A DNA stretch of 64,000 bases from Sphaerotilus natans (lineage in GTDB: Bacteria > Pseudomonadota > Gammaproteobacteria > Burkholderiales > Burkholderiaceae_C): contig NZ_FTMZ01000003.1 of NCBI RefSeq assembly GCF_900156335.1, positions 1 through 64,000 of the forward strand, in the 5' to 3' direction. The notes under the pieces are model-generated. The model was not told the DNA's origin and made no database searches. It was given only the letters and a program-made list of their open reading frames with translations. This document shows positions 15,408 to 24,163 of the stretch, in pieces (position 1 is the first letter of the stretch; each line of letters begins with the position of its first letter). The position numbers and the translations under genes were made by a program.

Positions 15408-18209
15408 TCAGCCGGCCACCGGCACCAGCGGGATCGAGGCCCGCACCAGCCCGCGCAGCACCGGCAGGCAGGAGCCGCAGTTGGTGCCGCACTTCAGCGC
15501 GCCCTGCAGCTGCTGCAGCCGCGCCTCGGCGCTGCCTTCGCAGTGGCCGAGCTGCTCGACGATCTGCGGTTCGGTCACGTTGAAGCAGGTGCAGACCTGG
15601 CGGCCGCGCTCGGCGATCGCCACCGGCGGCGTGGCGCTGGCGGCCAGCAGGCGCCGACCGTAGGCCTGCGCAGGCAGCTCGTCCTTGACCAGCGTGCGGA
15701 GCCAGGATTCGGCCCGGGTGTCGCCTGCCAGCAGCACGCCGCGCAGCCGGCCGCCGTCCAGGCGGGCGCTGCGGAACTGGCCGCGCTCGGCGTCCTCGTA
15801 ACGCATCGCGGTGGGGGCGTCCAGGCCGAGCAGCGCGGCGATCTCGGCGATCAGACTGGCCTCGGCCGGCGTGGCCGCCGAGGCGCGCCAGATCACGCCG
15901 CCCAGCCCGCCGTCATGGGGCTCGCGGCCGAAGGGCAGCACCATCGCGTGGGCGAAGCGCGGCATCAGCGCGCGCAGGTGCTCGCGCACCCGCAGGATCT
16001 CGTCCTGCGGCAGCCAGGCCAGGCCGACCATGCGCCAGGGCAGATCGGCCTTCACGACCGAGACGGCCGCGTGCTTGAGCTCGGGCTGCTTCGATCCTGG
16101 GCAGAAGGTCGGCAGCGTCAGGCCGTTGACGCCCCGGCGCGGCGTGCCATCGGCATCGGTGCCGCCCAGCACCTCCTCGCCCCAGTGCATCGGGATCGAG
16201 ACCTGACCCCGAGCGACCGCCCCGCCGGCCTGCGCAGCCAGCACGACGCTGCCGCGGCGCGAGCGCACCTCGACCAGATCGCCGTCCTTCAGGCCCAGCG
16301 CGGCCAGGTCGGCGGCGTTCATCTCGACCCCCGGCTCGGGCACATGGCCGAACAGGCGGCCCAGCGTGCCGGTGCGGCTCATGCCGTGCCACTGGTCGCG
16401 CAGCCGGCCGCTGATCAGCGAGAAGGGGTAGAGCGCATCGACCGGCTCGGCCACCGGGCGGAAGCTCACCGGCGCGAAGCGGGCGCGGCCGTCCTCGGTG
16501 GGGAAGACGCCGTCCTCGTAGAGGCGGGGTCGGCCAGCGCGGGCGCCCTCGGGCATCGGCCACTGCTGCGGGCCGTGCTGCTCGAGGTGCGCCCAGCTCA
16601 GGCCGGTGATGTCGAGGTCGCGGCCGCGGGTGCTCTCGCGGTGCTCGTTCCAGATGGATTCGGCGTCTGCGTAGGGGAATAGCGTGGCCTGGCCGTGCAG
16701 GCGCTCGGGCAGGCGCGCCTCGATGCGGCGGGCCACGTCGATGGCGATCTGCCAGTCGTGGCGCGCCTGGCCGGGCGCGGCCACCGCCGGGCGCACCCGG
16801 CTGATGCGCCGCTCGGAGTTGGTCACCGAGCCGATCTTCTCGCCCCAGGTGGTGGCCGGCAGCAGCAGGTCGGCGTAGGCGGCGGTCGCGGTGGTGGCGA
16901 AGGCTTCCTGCACGATGACGAACTCGGCGCGCTCAAGCGCGCGGCGCACCATCGCCTGGTCGGGGATGGACTGCGCCGGGTTGGTGCAGGCGATCCACAG
17001 CAGGCGGATCTCGCCGTCGGCGGCGGCCTCGAACATCTCGATGGCGCTGCGCCCCGGCGTGGCCGGCACGTCGGGCAGGCCCCACAGCGCGGCGACCTCG
17101 GCGCGGTGCGCCGGGTTGGCCAGGTCGCGGTGGGCGCTGAGCAGGTTCGACAGGCCGCCGACCTCGCGTCCGCCCATCGCGTTGGGCTGGCCGGTCAGCG
17201 AGAAGGGACCGGCCCCGGCGCGGCCGATCTGGCCGGTGGCCAGGTGCAGGTTGATCAGCGCGGCGTTCTTGTCGGTGCCGGCGGCGCTCTGGTTCAGGCC
17301 CATGCAGTACAGCGACAGCGTGGCGCCGCCGGGGCGGTCGGCCTGCGCGAACCAGCGCGCGGCCTGGATCAGGTCGGCCTCGGCGATGCCGCAGACCTCG
17401 GCGGCGCGCGCCGGGGTCCAGTCCTGCACCACCTCGCGCAGCGCCGCGAAGCCGGTGGTGTGCGCGGCGATGTAGCGCGCGTCGGTCAGGCCCTCGGCCA
17501 GCATGACGTGCAGCAGGCCGTGGTAGAGCGCCACATCGGTGCCCGGGCGGATCTGCAGGAACAGGTCGGCGGTCTCGGCCGTCTCGGTGCGGCGCACGTC
17601 GACGACGATCCAGCGCTGGCCGGGGCGCGCGGCGCGGGCGTCCTCCATGCGGCGGAACAGGATCGGGTGCGCCCAGGCGGTGTTGCTGCCGGTGATGAAG
17701 ACGGTGTCGGCGTGCGCGACGTCCTCGTAGCTGCACGGCGGCGCGTCGGCGCCGAGCGTCTTCTTGTAGCCGGCAACCGCGCTGGACATGCACAGCCGCG
17801 AGTTGGTGTCGACGTTGTTGGTGCCGAGCAGCCCCTTGGCGAGCTTGTTGAAGACGTAGTAGTCCTCGGTCAGCAGCTGGCCCGACAGGTAGAGGCCGAC
17901 CGCGTCGGGGCCATGCTGGCGCACGACGTCGGCGATGCGGTCTGCTGCGGTGTCCAGCGCGTGGGTCCAGTCGATCGGCTGCGGGGCGGCGTCGCGCTGG
18001 AGCCGCTGCATCGGCTGCAGCAGCCGGCTGCTTCGGGTGATCGCCGCGCTGGCGGTCAGGTGCAGCGTGCTGCCCTTGGTGCACAGCCGGCCGAAGTTGG
18101 CCGGATGCTCGGGATCGCCGCGCACGCCGGTGATCTGCGTGCCATCGGACTCGATGATCACGCCGCAGCCGACGCCGCAGTAGGGGCAGGTGGAACGGGT
18201 CTGCATCAT
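15408..18209 (-). CDS. nasC: Assimilatory nitrate reductase catalytic subunit with C-terminal [2Fe-2S] domain
   Basis: A 933-residue molybdopterin-guanine-dinucleotide enzyme. CPYCGVGCGVI and RLCTKG (residues 8-50) bind the N-terminal [4Fe-4S] cluster. SLYCMGLNQSAAGTDKN and GGREVGGLSNLL belong to the Mo-cofactor core, and QWHGMSRTG starts the molydopterin-dinucleotide domain. The tail has CTCFN and CGTNCGSC, a BFD-like [2Fe-2S] domain as in NasA/NasC proteins. It reduces nitrate to nitrite in the cytoplasm. Names vary between species (nasA, nasC, narB). The start at 18209 (a second ATG at 18206) is set by the cysteine motif; the upstream open frame overlaps the FAD gene. Confidence 0.93.
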   Translation of the reverse strand: MMQTRSTCPYCGVGCGVIIESDGTQITGVRGDPEHPANFGRLCTKGSTLHLTASAAITRSSRLLQPMQRLQRDAAPQPIDWTHALDTAADRIADVVRQHGPDAVGLYLSGQLLTEDYYVFNKLAKGLLGTNNVDTNSRLCMSSAVAGYKKTLGADAPPCSYEDVAHADTVFITGSNTAWAHPILFRRMEDARAARPGQRWIVVDVRRTETAETADLFLQIRPGTDVALYHGLLHVMLAEGLTDARYIAAHTTGFAALREVVQDWTPARAAEVCGIAEADLIQAARWFAQADRPGGATLSLYCMGLNQSAAGTDKNAALINLHLATGQIGRAGAGPFSLTGQPNAMGGREVGGLSNLLSAHRDLANPAHRAEVAALWGLPDVPATPGRSAIEMFEAAADGEIRLLWIACTNPAQSIPDQAMVRRALERAEFVIVQEAFATTATAAYADLLLPATTWGEKIGSVTNSERRISRVRPAVAAPGQARHDWQIAIDVARRIEARLPERLHGQATLFPYADAESIWNEHRESTRGRDLDITGLSWAHLEQHGPQQWPMPEGARAGRPRLYEDGVFPTEDGRARFAPVSFRPVAEPVDALYPFSLISGRLRDQWHGMSRTGTLGRLFGHVPEPGVEMNAADLAALGLKDGDLVEVRSRRGSVVLAAQAGGAVARGQVSIPMHWGEEVLGGTDADGTPRRGVNGLTLPTFCPGSKQPELKHAAVSVVKADLPWRMVGLAWLPQDEILRVREHLRALMPRFAHAMVLPFGREPHDGGLGGVIWRASAATPAEASLIAEIAALLGLDAPTAMRYEDAERGQFRSARLDGGRLRGVLLAGDTRAESWLRTLVKDELPAQAYGRRLLAASATPPVAIAERGRQVCTCFNVTEPQIVEQLGHCEGSAEARLQQLQGALKCGTNCGSCLPVLRGLVRASIPLVPVAG

Positions 18210-18259
18210 GGCGGGGAGCCTGTCTCGGGTTCGGTGTCTTGGGGTGTCAGGTCGCGGCG

Positions 18260-19525
18260 TCAGGCCAGCGCGGATTCGGCCTCGGCACGGCCGAACATCA
18301 GCCGCTCGCGCATCTCGCCCAGCGTCGCGCCTTCCCGGATCAGGTCGAAATACCAGCTGCCGTCCGAGGTGTCGCCGTACAGGCAGGCGCCGACCAGGCG
18401 GCCCTCGCGCAGCACCAGCTTGCGGTAGACCCCGTCGACCGGGTCGGACAGCAGGATCTGCTCGCTGTCCTCGTCGCCCATGAAGTCGCCGGCGGAGAAC
18501 AGGTCGATGCCGGTGACCTTCAGCCGGGTCGCGGTCTGGCTGCCGGTGTAGCGGCCGATGCCGGTCTCGCCCAGATGGGCGGCCAGAACCCGGGCCTGCT
18601 CGTACAGCGGCGCGACCAGGCCGTAGGCGATGCCGCGGTGGCTGGCGCATTCGCCCACCGCCCAGATGCGCGCGTCCGTCACGGTCTGCATCGTGTCGCT
18701 GACGCGGATGCCGCCGCGGCCGTCATGGTCGCACAGCAGACCGGCCGCGCGCGCCAGCGCGGTGTTCGGGCGGATGCCGGCGGCCATCACCACCAGGTCG
18801 GCCGGGATCTCGCGGCCGTCCTTCAGCCGCAGCGCGCGCACCCGGCCGGACTGGCCGTCCTCGGCATCGCCCAGCAGCGCCTCGGTCTGCGCCCGCAGCG
18901 CGAAGCGCAGGCCGCGCGCCTCCAGCGCCTGCTGCAGCAGCCGGCCGGCGGTCGGGTCGAGCTGGCGGTCGAGCAGCCACGCGCCCAGATGCACCACCGT
19001 GACCTCCATGCCGCGCAGCTTCAGGCCGTTGGCGGCTTCCAGGCCCAGCAGGCCGCCGCCGACCACCACCGCGTGGCGGCGGGTGCGCGCGGCCTCGATC
19101 ATGGTCTCGGTGTCGGCGATGTCGCGGTAGGCGATGACGCCTTCCAGCCGGTGGCCGGGCACCGGCGGGATGAAGGGCGTCGAGCCGGTGGCCAGGATCA
19201 GCCGGTCGTAGTCGGCGCGGATCGTCGTGCCGTCGGCCCGGGAGGCGATGACCTGGCGACGGGCCCGGTCGATCGTGGTGACGGTCGTGCCCAGGTGCAG
19301 CGTGATGCCGTGCTGCGCGTACCACGACAGCGGGTTGAGCACGATCTGGTCGAGCGTCTGCTCGCCGGCCAGCACCGGGCTGAGCATGATGCGGTTGTAG
19401 TTCGGGTACGGCTCGGCGCCGAACACGGTGATGTCGTAGCGATCCGGCGCGATCTTCAGCAGCTCCTCGAGCGCGCGCGCGCCGGCCATGCCGTTGCCGA
19501 TCATCACGAGCTTCATTCTGGGCAT
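18260..19525 (-). CDS. FAD/NAD(P)H oxidoreductase subunit of assimilatory nitrate reductase (NirB N-terminal-like)
   Basis: A 421-residue pyridine-nucleotide disulfide-type flavoprotein. MKLVMIGNGMAGARALEEL is the FAD dinucleotide fold, VVVGGGLLGLEAANGLK the NAD(P)H fold, and RIWAVGECASHRGIAYGLVAPLYEQARVLA the C-terminal FAD contact. It resembles the N-terminal half of nitrite reductase NirB but stops before the bacterioferredoxin and sirohaem domains, like the electron-transfer subunits of Klebsiella and Bacillus nitrate reductases. It probably passes electrons to the catalytic subunit encoded 50 bases downstream. AGGAG upstream of the ATG at 19525 fixes the start. Confidence 0.85.
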   Translation of the reverse strand: MPRMKLVMIGNGMAGARALEELLKIAPDRYDITVFGAEPYPNYNRIMLSPVLAGEQTLDQIVLNPLSWYAQHGITLHLGTTVTTIDRARRQVIASRADGTTIRADYDRLILATGSTPFIPPVPGHRLEGVIAYRDIADTETMIEAARTRRHAVVVGGGLLGLEAANGLKLRGMEVTVVHLGAWLLDRQLDPTAGRLLQQALEARGLRFALRAQTEALLGDAEDGQSGRVRALRLKDGREIPADLVVMAAGIRPNTALARAAGLLCDHDGRGGIRVSDTMQTVTDARIWAVGECASHRGIAYGLVAPLYEQARVLAAHLGETGIGRYTGSQTATRLKVTGIDLFSAGDFMGDEDSEQILLSDPVDGVYRKLVLREGRLVGACLYGDTSDGSWYFDLIREGATLGEMRERLMFGRAEAESALA

Positions 19526-19615
19526 TGCGAACTCCTGGCTGCGGGAGACCCGTTCAGGGTCTTCCCATGCAAATTCATGTGGAACAAGTTGCATTCCCAT
19601 TCACAATGCGGCCGC

Positions 19616-21340
19616 ATGAGCTTTGATGTCGACATCGGACACACCAGCGCCAGCGGGGTGCGGGAACGCAACGAGGATTTCGCCGCTGCCGTGCGCGCCG
19701 GTGCGCAGGAGCCGGGTCGCGGCCTGATCGCGGCCGTGGCCGATGGCGTGTCGGCCGGCGGTCTGGGGCGCGAGGCCGCCCAGACCACGGTGACGAGCCT
19801 GGTGCAGGATTTCCATGCCGCACCGGCCACCTGGGAGACGACGGTCGTCCTTGACCGTCTGATCGGCGCCCAGAACGCCTGGCTGGCCGACCACAACCGG
19901 CGCCGCAGCGGACCCGGCGGCGATCGTGCCTCCGGACTGACCACGCTGACGGCGCTGGCTCTGCAGGGCCACACCTGGACGCTCGCCCACGTCGGCGACA
20001 CCCGGGCCTGGCTGCTGCGCGGGGGCGAGCTGCAGCAGCTCACCCAGGACCATGCCATCGATCATCCCGACTTCCGCAGCCAGCTCACCCGCGCAGTCGG
20101 CCTCGACCTGGCGGTGCGCGCCGACTACCTCCAGGGCGAACTGCAGACCGGCGACATCTTCATGCTCACCACCGATGGCGTGCATGGCGTGCTCCGGCCC
20201 GAGCAGATCCGCGCGCTGCTGGCCACCGCGCCGGCTCAGCGGGCCAGCGAGGCGGTCGTCAAGGCCGCGCTGGAGGCGGGCAGTCAGGACAACGTCACGG
20301 CATTGGTCATGCAAGTTCTGGGCCTGGAGCCGGTGCGGCTGCAGGACACGCTGCTGCAGGCGCGCCAGCTGCCGGTGCCGCCGCGCATGCGCCCGGGCGA
20401 CACGCTCGACGGCTGGAGCATCACCGCGCTGGTGGCCGACACCGGTGTGCACCGGCTCTACCAGGCGCGTGATCCGGCCAGCCGCGAGCTGGTGGCGATC
20501 AAGACGCTGCACGAGTCGCGCGCCAGCGACCGCGAGGAACAGGCGATGCTGGCGCACGAGGCCTGGCTGGGCCTGCAGGTGACCGACAGCGGCGCTCCCG
20601 GCTTCGTGCGGGTGCGTCAGGTCAAGGCGCCGAGCGCCTTCTACACCGTCTTCGACTGGCACAGCGGCCACACGCTGGAGCAGCTGCTGGCCGAGGAGGC
20701 GCGCCGCTTCGCGATCCCCGAGGTGGTGCAGGGCGGGCTGGCGGTGTGCCGCGCGCTCGGGCGGCTGCACCGCATTGGGGTGATCCACCGCGACATCAAG
20801 CCCGGCAATCTGCATCTGGGCGAGGACGGCCAGTGGCGGGTGCTCGACCTGGGCGTGGCGGTGTCGGGCCGCGAGCCGGCCTCCACGCGCACGCTGCACG
20901 CCGGCACGCCCAGCTACATGAACCCGGAGCAGTGGGAGGGCGCCGAGGGTCGGCCGGCCGACGCCGGCAGCGACCTGTTCGCGCTGGGCGTGACGCTCTA
21001 CCAGTGGCTGACGGGGCGGCTGCCCTACGGGGAGATCGAGCCGTGGCAGACCGCGCGCTTCCGGCGCGATCCGGTCGCGCCCTCGCGCCTGCGCCCGGAG
21101 GTGCCGATCTGGCTCGACCATGTGGTGATGAAGGCGATCGCGCGGGATGCGCGCCAGCGCTTCGAGACCGCCGAGGAGTTCGCGCTGGCGCTCGAGCGCG
21201 GTGCCTCCAGGCCGCTGAACGCGCCCCAGGCCACGCCGCTGGTGCGGCGCGATCCGGCCTGGGCCTGGAAGGTCACCTGCGTGATCTCGCTGATCTTCAA
21301 CCTGATGCTGGTGATCTGGCTGCTGTTCCTGCCGCGCTGA
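19616..21340 (+). CDS. Bifunctional PP2C phosphatase / Ser-Thr protein kinase, membrane-anchored
   Basis: A 574-residue fusion. Residues 1-235 are a PP2C phosphatase (VRERNEDF, VADGVSAGGLG, THVGDTR-like AHVGDTRAW, TTDGVHG, SQDNVTALV, giving the metal aspartates). Residues 265-540 are a Hanks-type kinase (VAIKTL lysine, HRDIKPGN catalytic loop, DLG in place of DFG, AGTPSYMNPEQ). A single membrane helix (ISLIFNLMLVIWLLFLP) ends the protein. It sits inside the nitrate locus, between transporter and reductase, as in Pseudomonas, but on the opposite strand to both neighbours here. A role in controlling nitrate uptake or reduction is likely but unproven. Confidence 0.92.
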   Translation: MSFDVDIGHTSASGVRERNEDFAAAVRAGAQEPGRGLIAAVADGVSAGGLGREAAQTTVTSLVQDFHAAPATWETTVVLDRLIGAQNAWLADHNRRRSGPGGDRASGLTTLTALALQGHTWTLAHVGDTRAWLLRGGELQQLTQDHAIDHPDFRSQLTRAVGLDLAVRADYLQGELQTGDIFMLTTDGVHGVLRPEQIRALLATAPAQRASEAVVKAALEAGSQDNVTALVMQVLGLEPVRLQDTLLQARQLPVPPRMRPGDTLDGWSITALVADTGVHRLYQARDPASRELVAIKTLHESRASDREEQAMLAHEAWLGLQVTDSGAPGFVRVRQVKAPSAFYTVFDWHSGHTLEQLLAEEARRFAIPEVVQGGLAVCRALGRLHRIGVIHRDIKPGNLHLGEDGQWRVLDLGVAVSGREPASTRTLHAGTPSYMNPEQWEGAEGRPADAGSDLFALGVTLYQWLTGRLPYGEIEPWQTARFRRDPVAPSRLRPEVPIWLDHVVMKAIARDARQRFETAEEFALALERGASRPLNAPQATPLVRRDPAWAWKVTCVISLIFNLMLVIWLLFLPR

Positions 21341-22611: not shown

Positions 22612-22711
22612 CGGAGTGGAGGGGGCGTGGGGGTGGGACGGCTCCGTCGCGGAAGGGGCCACAGCAGCCTGAGCGCGGAGGGTCGATGCGAGGTGCTCTG
22701 GCGGCACCATG

Positions 22712-22729
22712 CGGTCCGGCGGCGGACCG
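22712..22729 (-). promoter_or_regulatory. GC-rich leader hairpin before nasA
   Basis: Read on the minus strand, CGGTCCG-CCGC-CGGACCG forms a 7-bp stem with a 4-base loop, about 100 bases before the transporter start and downstream of the hexaloop hairpin. No T-run follows, so it is not a classical terminator alone. It may be part of an attenuator. Confidence 0.4.
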
Positions 22730-22751
22730 GGGCCGGCATGCGGCGCCGGCA

Positions 22752-22769
22752 GATCGCGGCTGTGCGATC
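22752..22769 (-). promoter_or_regulatory. Hexaloop hairpin, candidate ANTAR-protein RNA target
   Basis: On the minus strand GATCGC-ACAGCC-GCGATC forms a perfect 6-bp stem with a 6-base loop that has A at position 1 and G at position 4, the two bases known to be conserved in RNA loops bound by ANTAR antiterminators. It lies immediately after the expected start of transcription of nasA. ANTAR targets normally have two such hairpins; I find only one strict match. Confidence 0.5.
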
Positions 22770-22782
22770 GTGATGGGCCATC

Positions 22783-22799
22783 AAGCATCTTCCATGCCG
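22783..22799 (-). promoter_or_regulatory. Candidate sigma-54 promoter of nasA
   Basis: The minus strand reads CGGCATGGAAGATGCTT: GG and GC separated by exactly ten bases, with GGCA and TGCT matching most of TGGCAC-N5-TTGCW. Transcription would start near 22773, directly before the hexaloop hairpin. Sigma-54/NtrC control is usual for nitrate assimilation operons. Confidence 0.5.
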
Positions 22800-22870
22800 G
22801 CACCCGGACAGTGCATGCCTGGCGTGGTGCGTGCTTAGTCTTCCGTCACAACAATGATGACCCCCTCCTG

Positions 22871-22888: not shown

Positions 22889-24163
22889 ATGCTGAAGATC
22901 CTTGCCGTGGCTCCGGCGCAGCCCGATGCGCCGACCCTCGTGACCGACCTGGAGTCCAACGGACTGCAGGTCTGTGCCCGCTGCACATGCGCCGCCATGG
23001 TGCGTGAGGCGGTGCGTCATGCACCAGACATGGTCATCGTCTGGGATCCGCACCCCGGCGAGGAGCTGTTCGAGGCGGCGCGGCTGCTCGAGTCGGCCGC
23101 GCCCGCGCCGGTGCTGGTCTTCACCAGCGACGTGCGCGCCGAGACGATGGAGACCGCGATCGCCTCGGGCATCGACGGCTGGGTGGTCAACGGCTATGCG
23201 GCCGGGCGGCTGCGGCCGCTGATCCAGTTCACCAGCGCGCGCCACCGCCAGATGCGCCAGATGCGCGAGGAGCTCGGCGACCTGAAGCGCCGGCTCGAGG
23301 AGCGCAAGCTGGTCGACCGTGCCAAGGGCATCCTGATGAGCGCGCGCCAGATCAGCGAGGACGAGGCCTTCCGGCTGCTGCGCTCGGCCTCGATGCACGC
23401 GAAGCTGCGCATCGGCCAGGTCTCGCAGCAGGTGATCGACTCGGCGCACTATGCCGAGGCGATCAACCGCGCCGGCCGGCTGCGCATGCTGTCGCAGCGC
23501 ATCGTCAAGCTCTACGCGCTTGCCGCGGCCGGCGTCGAGGCGGCGGGATCGCGCGCGCTGCTGGCCGATTCGGTCACCCAGGTCGAGCAGAGCCTGTCAG
23601 TGCTGGCGCGCACCCTGTCGCAGCCGACCTTCGGCGATCTGCTCGGCGCGGTGCAGGGCACCTGGGCGACGGTGCAGGCCGGGCTGGGCGGCCTGCCGGT
23701 GAGCTCGCGCACGGGGGTGCTCGACCAGGAGGCCGAGCGGCTGCTGGAGCTGTCGGACCGGCTGACCCAGGCGCTGGAGAATGCCGGGCTGACGCCGTCG
23801 CTGCATGTCATCAATGTCTCGGGGCGTCAGCGCATGCTGGTGCAGCGCCTGGCCAAGCTGGCGCTGCTGCGCAGCGGCCCGGCGATCGCGCCTGCAGAGC
23901 CGCTGCCGGTCGATCTGGCGCCCACCGCCGAGGCCTTCGAGCGCGGCCTGGCCTATCTGCACGAGATTCCGCTGTCGACGCCGCTGATCCGCGAGGGCCT
24001 GGCCCGCGCCGAGGCGACCTGGCGCGACATGCTCGCCGCGGTGCGTGCCGGCGCGCAGCAGGGCGCGCGCATCACGCTGGCGGCCAGCAGCGAGTCGCTG
24101 CTGGAGCTGTTCGACGCGCTGACCCGCGAGTACGAGCAGAGCATGCAGATGCTGATGGGGTGA
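22889..24163 (+). CDS. Receiver-ANTAR regulator fused to two NarX-like nitrate-sensing (PilJ-type) domains
   Basis: A 424-residue soluble protein. Residues 1-120 are a receiver-like domain: an aspartate is present in VIVWDPHPG, but the lysine normally in VxKP is replaced (GWVVNGY), so it is probably a pseudo-receiver. Residues 122-188 are an ANTAR RNA-binding domain (KLVDRAKGILMSARQISEDEAFRLLRSASM). INRAGRLRMLSQRIVKLY (about 190) and INVSGRQRMLVQRLAKLA (about 307) resemble the nitrate-binding P-box of NarX and mark two tandem PilJ/NarX-type helical domains. By analogy with NasR it should bind nitrate and prevent termination in nas leaders. It is divergent from the transporter. Confidence 0.88.
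   Translation: MLKILAVAPAQPDAPTLVTDLESNGLQVCARCTCAAMVREAVRHAPDMVIVWDPHPGEELFEAARLLESAAPAPVLVFTSDVRAETMETAIASGIDGWVVNGYAAGRLRPLIQFTSARHRQMRQMREELGDLKRRLEERKLVDRAKGILMSARQISEDEAFRLLRSASMHAKLRIGQVSQQVIDSAHYAEAINRAGRLRMLSQRIVKLYALAAAGVEAAGSRALLADSVTQVEQSLSVLARTLSQPTFGDLLGAVQGTWATVQAGLGGLPVSSRTGVLDQEAERLLELSDRLTQALENAGLTPSLHVINVSGRQRMLVQRLAKLALLRSGPAIAPAEPLPVDLAPTAEAFERGLAYLHEIPLSTPLIREGLARAEATWRDMLAAVRAGAQQGARITLAASSESLLELFDALTREYEQSMQMLMG

Follow-up and report, generated by a model that had tools for sequence, protein, structure and literature searches.

A probable ANTAR-type nitrate leader behind a sigma-54-like promoter upstream of nasA in Sphaerotilus natans and its relatives

Introduction

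How is a nitrate transporter gene controlled when its predicted promoter is followed almost at once by a hexaloop RNA hairpin, and when an ANTAR protein is encoded divergently beside it? The window, that is, the whole 64,000-nucleotide stretch of Sphaerotilus natans DNA analysed here, raises this question at the gene nasA. An original prediction had taken the locus for an antitermination leader controlled by nitrogen status and nitrate, with a single strict hexaloop in sight. Judging from sequence comparison, we consider it likely that a nitrate-responsive ANTAR leader lies behind a sigma-54 promoter and is read by the divergent receiver-ANTAR-PilJ-PilJ protein. That the leader is a variant of the known ANTAR nitrate leaders appears well supported by the comparison.

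Promoter, first hairpin and leader in the window

The features on which the argument is built are the following.

22799 to 22815, minus strand: NtrC-like palindrome TGCACTGTCCGGGTGCC, directly adjoining the -24 element, with two mismatches to the consensus used
22784 to 22799, minus strand: sigma-54 -24/-12-like promoter element CGGCATGGAAGATGCT, from sequence, score 27
22612 to 22773, minus strand: predicted untranslated leader of 162 nt, from the spacing-predicted +1 to the ATG, from sequence
22752 to 22769, minus strand: P1, hexaloop hairpin GATCGC-ACAGCC-GCGATC with A1 and G4 in the loop, from the fold and a covarying orthologous helix
21361 to 22611, minus strand: nasA, NarK-family nitrate/nitrite MFS transporter, from PF07690 (MFS_1) and TIGR00886
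22889 to 24163, plus strand: ANTAR regulator with a receiver-like part (residues about 1-120), ANTAR domain (131-183) and two PilJ repeats, from Pfam, alignments and a structural model

The predicted order of a minus-strand GG-N10-GC promoter and a perfect hairpin with a 6-base loop carrying A1 and G4 holds at the level of coordinates, with GG at 22798-22797, GC at 22786-22785, N10 between them, and P1 at 22769-22752. P1 begins at +5 relative to the spacing-predicted +1 (22773), close to the +4 proposed, and lies about 140 nt upstream of the transporter gene. The best NCBIfam match of the transporter was TIGR00886 (E 9.5e-69, under that family's cut-off). The element CGGCATGGAAGATGCT fits GG-N10-GC with a TGGCAC/TTGC context, though imperfectly, and is among the weaker promoters of the set (27 against 29-34 in most orthologues, as scored against a sigma-54 consensus). 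An rpoN gene is present, with one Sigma54_DBD match in the genome (E 4.5e-64).

RNAfold gave the leader three hairpins: P1, a middle one and a third. The total folding energy was ordinary for the composition (z -0.59), a measure that is uninformative in a GC-rich leader, and a search of the leader against Rfam gave no match near any gathering score.

We counted how often the two elements meet in the window. Perfect A1/G4 hexaloops with a stem of at least 6 occur six times on both strands together, and GG-N10-GC sites scoring at least 27 occur 117 times. Only one such site has a loop 12-29 nt downstream, namely the one in the nasA leader; three further site-loop pairs have site scores of 22-26. 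The chance expectation of such a pair in the window is estimated at about 0.1, and the pair is modest and suggestive on its own. The observation becomes firm because of the comparative evidence below.

The divergent regulator

As had been predicted, an ANTAR protein is encoded divergently. The ORF at 22889-24163 gives 424 residues from 22889, in which Pfam finds an ANTAR domain (PF03861, E 1.7e-19) and two PilJ stretches; the same Pfam search found no NIT domain. The ANTAR domain carries the expected RNA-contact residues: K140, F161 and M169, invariant in 14 sequences, align with Lys143, Tyr164 and Met172 of EutV, with Phe in the place of Tyr164.

Each PilJ repeat holds one G-x-x-R motif, at residues 196-199 and 312-315. 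The surrounding P-box stretches, AINRAGRLRM and VINVSGRQRM (AINRAGRLRMLSQR and VINVSGRQRMLVQR), conform to the nitrate-sensor motif, whose consensus is given as A-I-N-x-A-G-S-L-R-M with G-x-x-R in the excerpt of a review used here (PMC8199190). In alignments of 14 and of 23 fusions, neither the G nor the R of either motif varies. A single chain with two P-boxes could by itself build a NarX-like nitrate site, and the motifs indicate that the regulator probably senses nitrate.

A structure predicted from 23 sequences had a mean pLDDT of 90. Its best structural matches in the PDB were EutV bound to RNA (6ww6), EutV, Rv1626 and AmiR, and the 185-192 aligned columns correspond in length to a receiver-ANTAR protein. 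Sequence matches of the regulator in the PDB included Rv1626, EutV and NasR, and PilJ weakly (E 0.029). At the level of search results, the literature gave no description of a receiver-ANTAR-PilJ-PilJ one-component nitrate regulator. The second ANTAR protein of the genome (L002, 1-3126) is a response regulator of receiver-ANTAR type, flanked by two ORFs that by eye resemble histidine kinases.

Conservation of the layout among relatives

Of 399 genomes sampled from the family, 71, counting the window's own, encode a full-length relative of the regulator (E 1e-40 or better). We collected upstream regions from 70 of these (G414 was left out) and from 26 named loci, 96 in all. P1 was not found under the permissive rule in four (L054, L091, L106 and L133), although L106 was later recovered by a model. 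Setting aside these four, eight duplicates and the spurious L051 left 83 distinct leaders.

Under a strict rule, 74 of 90 distinct upstream regions had a site followed by a hexaloop at the expected distance; with the 60 nt past every sigma-54 site shuffled, the mean was 0.85 (maximum 3). The permissive rule gave 86 of 90 against 18.75 (maximum 26). The P1 loop starts 17-20 nt past the promoter 16-mer in 76 of the 83 leaders; an early tally of loop length used sites already chosen for having P1 and is not independent. The shuffles for layout, P2, T-runs, further hexaloops, NtrC sites, post-P2 hairpins, distant pairs and the pseudoknot strand preserved composition only. NtrC-like sites with at most two mismatches were detected in 14 of 83 leaders (1.3 in shuffles); the palindrome was nevertheless graded weak because leaders L034-L036 have only sites with four mismatches.

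A second hairpin with a purine at loop position 1 and G4, 40-47 nt from P1 loop to loop, was found in 42 of 83 leaders, against 2.5 (maximum 9) in shuffles. A covariance model added four more at 65 bits or above (L053, L060, L062 and L106), so that class I, with P1 and P2, comprises 46 of 84 leaders, and class II the other 38, with P1 only. Loop position 1 in distinct class I leaders was A in 18 and G in 20 for P1, and A in 23 and G in 12 for P2, in a tally for which purine 1 and G4 were themselves selection criteria.

The gene downstream is a NarK-type transporter in 59 of the 83 leaders. At least 12 of the remaining 24 precede a nirB-like gene (11 by N terminus, L066 by Pfam). Pfam assigned eight of the non-NarK downstream genes to Pyr_redox_2 (four), NMT1_2 (two), MFS (one) and no family (one); by reading, the first group would be NirB-type and the second NrtA-type.

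A second hairpin and a structured interval

The window holds three further elements within the leader.

22732 to 22750, minus strand: middle hairpin GCCGGC-GCCGCAT-GCCGGC in the interval between P1 and P2, from the fold; the orthologous helix covaries
22712 to 22729, minus strand: P2, hexaloop hairpin CGGTCC-GCCGCC-GGACCG with G1 and G4 in the loop, from the fold, the register and covariation in orthologues
22704 to 22741, minus strand: possible pseudoknot between GCAT of the middle loop (22741-22738) and GTGC past P2 (22707-22704), from pairing in orthologues

The original prediction saw one strict hexaloop, and in this it fell short: the partner exists at 22729-22712. Its suggestion that the partner diverges proved apt, since P2 stands 40 nt on, loop to loop, in the register of the orthologues' P2, and its loop GCCGCC has G4 but G at position 1, whereas the P1 loop ACAGCC fits both preferred bases. 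The fold shows window P2 with 7 bp closing a loop of 4 bases. The GC-rich 7-bp hairpin that had been noted after P1 is present, as either the middle hairpin or P2, though not as a terminator. The linker between P1 and P2 is 22 nt in the window and contains its own hairpin; in class I it measures about 20-29 nt.

We assessed these helices in an alignment of 42 class I leaders (A2). Across the alignment, two-sided changes occur in 12 of the 18 pairs (8.6 in shuffles), and the covariation score was 0.364, compared with 0.205 for shuffles and at most 0.142 with the partners slid. The P1 helix is paired in 97.5% of cells with two-sided changes in four of six pairs, and the P2 helix, which also covaries, in 89.8%; these percentages are biased because P1 and P2 were chosen for pairing, and the evidence lies in the two-sided changes. 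Within the genus, one P1 pair is A-U in the window and G-C in L034. The middle hairpin is paired in 72.9% of cells, with 24 two-sided cells against 13.6 in shuffles, but its exact register is unsure because a slide of -1 comes close (68.0% paired, score 0.230 against 0.269 in register). Unaided, RNAalifold predicted P1 and most of P2 from A2, and not the middle hairpin.

The loop of the middle hairpin can also pair with a strand past P2 (GCAC/GTGC, GATAC/GTATC, GTAC/GTAC). This helix is paired in 81.6% of cells, with two-sided changes in four of four pairs (16 cells, 5.0 in shuffles), as tested on the same sequences in which it was noticed; slid by -2, it was still paired in 70.1% and scored 0.222 against 0.321. 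A looser test of loop-to-strand pairing of at least 5 bp was less clear (45% against 28% in shuffles). Pseudoknot-like pairing around P2 is thus a probable trait of class I leaders, to go by the alignment. The window and its sister species lack four bases at this point in the alignment and have a weak version only, in the window 4 bp including one G-U.

A covariance model built without the window's genus (R2) scored the congeneric leaders at 46.3 (L036), 38.7 (L035), 35.9 (L207), 29.1 (L208), 28.6 (L034), 24.8 (L205), 20.0 (window) and 15.7 bits (L033). With filters off, the window site ranked first in the 64 kb (E 0.014), a chance site following at 19.6 bits; with default filters it was missed. 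The window copy is in the right place and register, and its low score makes it one of the most diverged. A whole-genome covariance search that scored 150 candidates per genome located a single site in each of 12 genomes out of 14. Because it scored only those candidates and missed the window's own site, this search cannot show that the element is unique.

Comparison with known ANTAR leaders

The closest parallels come from three systems. The NasR-nasF target of Klebsiella oxytoca is a two-hairpin hexaloop with preferred A1 and G4, as described in the part of the source used here (PMC7496416). Like it, the present system combines nitrate sensing and ANTAR RNA binding (both putative here) in one protein, and has two hexaloops before a nitrate assimilation operon (same excerpt, PMC7496416). 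Unlike NasR, the regulator has as its sensor two PilJ repeats after the ANTAR domain, together with a receiver-like N terminus; and unlike nasF, loop position 1 is A or G in the window's family, and the segment between the hairpins is structured.

In the Paracoccus denitrificans nas leader, hairpins HI and HII lie 137 and 91 bp upstream of nasA; mutation of HI severely cut activity and HII mattered little (passages cited from PMC5424462). The resemblance to NasS-NasT extends to the two-hairpin nas leader and to the protein, NasT being the sister group of the regulator's N-terminal half. In contrast to that system the sensor is fused, and by its domain make-up the regulator would not need a separate NasS.

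With EutV and the eut leaders of Enterococcus faecalis the shared traits are the dual hexaloop, the G4 contacted in EutV, the dimeric ANTAR of EutV, and 6ww6 as best structural match. Eut linkers measure 5-12 nt; 14 nt cut induction and an additional 20 nt abolished antitermination, according to the excerpts consulted (PMC3369931, PMC8934654). The window's linker, with 22 nt, a hairpin and a probable pseudoknot, is not short and exceeds what works for EutV, and there is no visible U-tract terminator overlapping P2 in the window. In more distant loci, 25 pairs of strict hexaloops lie 19-58 nt apart, loop to loop, so the eut spacing is not universal. A literature search at the level of search results found no report of a pseudoknotted or single-hexaloop nas leader.

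Proposed mechanism and the question of termination

Under the reading that we favour, nitrogen limitation would let sigma-54 RNA polymerase start nasA transcription near 22773. The nascent RNA would expose P1 at once, then the middle hairpin and then P2. Nitrate would be sensed by the divergent receiver-ANTAR-PilJ-PilJ protein, probably at a pocket formed by the two P-box G-x-x-R motifs; the activated ANTAR domain would bind P1 and then P2, and polymerase would reach nasA. Without nitrate, a downstream leader structure, or Rho acting on the C-rich end, would stop transcription. It is from domains, motifs and context only that we infer a control by nitrate and nitrogen status.

The last of these steps is where the predicted antitermination layout stood in part. 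An ANTAR-type leader, a sigma-54 promoter, an adjacent ANTAR regulator and nitrate-assimilation genes are all in place, conserved and covarying, but textbook termination and antitermination are not apparent, as no U-tract terminator is found in the window's leader. A hairpin followed by a T-run was sought in the window leader and none was detected, so P2 overlaps no intrinsic terminator of that kind.

This bears on an alternative that we regard as possible while not expecting it to be right, namely that ANTAR binding controls a non-intrinsic step: Rho access to the C-rich end, pausing, or nasA translation. Class I leaders as a whole are not enriched in hairpins with T-runs (21 of 42, 20.5 in shuffles), and their best post-P2 hairpin exceeds the shuffled 95th percentile in 15 of the 42, yet few T follow it (1.7 per 10). 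The last 80 nt of the window leader are C-rich and G-poor (52% C and 22% G, compared with 34% and 34% in 18 control upstream regions), which is compatible with Rho. The sister class II, with the same kind of regulator, is by contrast enriched for hairpin and T-run (29 of 41 against 17.9, maximum 22, in shuffles, a count that included three leaders later moved to class I), and its leader ends also have C over G (41% and 25%). Klebsiella nasF and Paracoccus nasA, moreover, are described as transcription attenuators in the excerpts at hand (PMC7496416, PMC5424462). By eye, a clear stem with GGCC and a T-run lies between P1 and the gene in L093, L094, L097-L099 and L124. In the class I leaders L066, L069 and L070, before nirB-like genes, a stem with TTTT is seen by eye just past P2 (about 1365-1460); this stem may engage P2, and these leaders are candidates for a textbook antiterminator switch.

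One-hairpin leaders and the fate of the second hairpin

Nearly all class II leaders belong to one regulator clade. A further hexaloop within 200 nt was found in one of the 38 (5.2 in shuffles). When model R1 was run on 15 of them it matched L081 (32.5 bits) and L073 (28.2 bits), which may therefore be decayed class I leaders, although both were left in class II. Of the 41 leaders originally assigned to this class, 26 have AACGAA or AACGAC as their P1 loop.

In a tree of N-terminal halves rooted on 41 NasT proteins, the fusions formed one group (92), and 34 of 36 class II rows fell into one clade with 98% SH-aLRT support. Among 55 more distant loci, mostly NasT, the leader model had no match at E 0.5 or better, and 12 had paired strict hexaloops in the 2 kb past the match (13 pairs, 1.2 in shuffles). 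Given these distant pairs and the NasT-rooted tree, two hairpins look ancestral and P2 appears to have been lost mainly once. A full-length tree rooted on a single long-branched fusion (L133) had made the one-hairpin class ancestral; rooting on the 41 NasT proteins reversed this and is preferred. Both trees came from a quick search.

The guess that a single hairpin suffices for the fused regulator may hold for a different clade (Variovorax, Aquabacterium, Mitsuaria), whose leaders have P1 only. A related alternative, that P1 alone is functional in this genome and P2 is a decaying relic, seems unlikely to us. It draws on the G1 of P2 in the window and its sister, where the loop can close to four bases and the element scores poorly, as well as on the P1-only clade and the unequal weight of HI and HII in P. 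denitrificans (PMC5424462, excerpt). Yet all eight genus members with a leader, the window included, keep a purine at position 1 and G4 in the two loops alike (that rule had selected five of them, and L205, L207 and L208 were read off the model alignment), and G1 is common in P2 (12 of 35 distinct leaders).

Two congeners, L206 (G599) and L209 (G598), lack the leader hairpins and gave no R2 match at the leader site. They keep the regulator, the transporter and a sigma-54-like site, which lies some 35-45 nt upstream of the transporter ATG, and are a natural loss of the leader. They lend some weight to the idea that the window's leader too is vestigial, with nasA now under sigma-54 and NtrC alone and the hairpins as remnants, as does the fact that the window and its sister have the lowest scores of the eight genus leaders. 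We think this improbable, as the compensatory P1 change within the genus and the intact ANTAR and nitrate motifs of the regulator speak against it. A chance hairpin beside an unrelated regulator, which the GC-rich window and the ordinary folding energy might suggest, is scarcely credible and already contradicted by the conservation, the covariation and the constant position seen across tens of genomes.

Returning to the two-hairpin leader read by the fused regulator, we offer a broader history only tentatively. NasT and a tandem PilJ sensor may have fused once, with a remodelled ANTAR code (a purine at loop position 1, and P2 pseudoknotted with the middle hairpin at a spacing that abolishes EutV antitermination); P2 might then have been lost in one clade, leaving a single 5' hexaloop to govern a non-overlapping terminator. 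The ANTAR model derived from EutV has two tightly spaced hexaloops, the second overlapping the terminator. If the proposed history is true, ANTAR proteins can act without a mutually exclusive switch between P2 and terminator, for example by staying with polymerase. The regulator lineage in any case provides a natural experiment, with two-hairpin, structured-linker leaders on many branches and one-hairpin leaders on another. The RNA change tracks the protein tree, and test pairs are ready for the sufficiency of a single hexaloop and the role of the second.

Distribution of the regulator and neighbouring genes

Named hosts of the fusion include Methylibium, Rhizobacter, Azohydromonas, Aquabacterium, Variovorax, Polaromonas, Ramlibacter, Hydrogenophaga and Mitsuaria. 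In the window's genus the two genes go together: 10 of 13 genomes encode both the transporter and the fusion, and the other three encode neither. In an order-wide sample of 200 genomes, full-length cover was seen in two of the matches listed (the window's genome and G049), and nearly all the other matches listed cover only the receiver-ANTAR part or the PilJ part. Four genomes from other families of the order (G068, G047, G111 and G121) have NasT-like and double-PilJ-like matches about 2-5 kb apart; such neighbouring genes are likely to correspond to the parts of the fusion. Two metagenome bins, labelled Beijerinckiaceae (L103) and Vitreoscilla (L123), carry the fusion and its leader, whose other occurrences are in the window's family; either transfer or mis-binning would explain this.

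A second copy of the leader was sought before the nirB-like gene of the window (start 19525, minus strand), and neither the window nor five congeners have one directly following a sigma-54-like site. In L225 a hexaloop is found about 50 nt beyond a sigma-54-like site upstream of the nirB-like gene; the other hexaloops seen before nirB in congeners are probably part of the PP2C-kinase coding sequence. In the window this fused PP2C phosphatase/Ser-Thr kinase gene (19571-21337, plus strand) separates the transporter from the nirB-like gene and is convergent with the former. The region 15411-19525 (minus strand) encodes a NasC-like nitrate reductase whose C terminus holds a BFD 2Fe-2S domain, together with a protein of 421 residues that matches the N-terminal half of NirB only and is possibly a NasB-type reductase partner. 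In L226 (G594) a strong sigma-54 site, TGGCATCTCGTTTGCA, stands just before the nirB-like gene without a leader, which suggests separate control of transporter and reductase.
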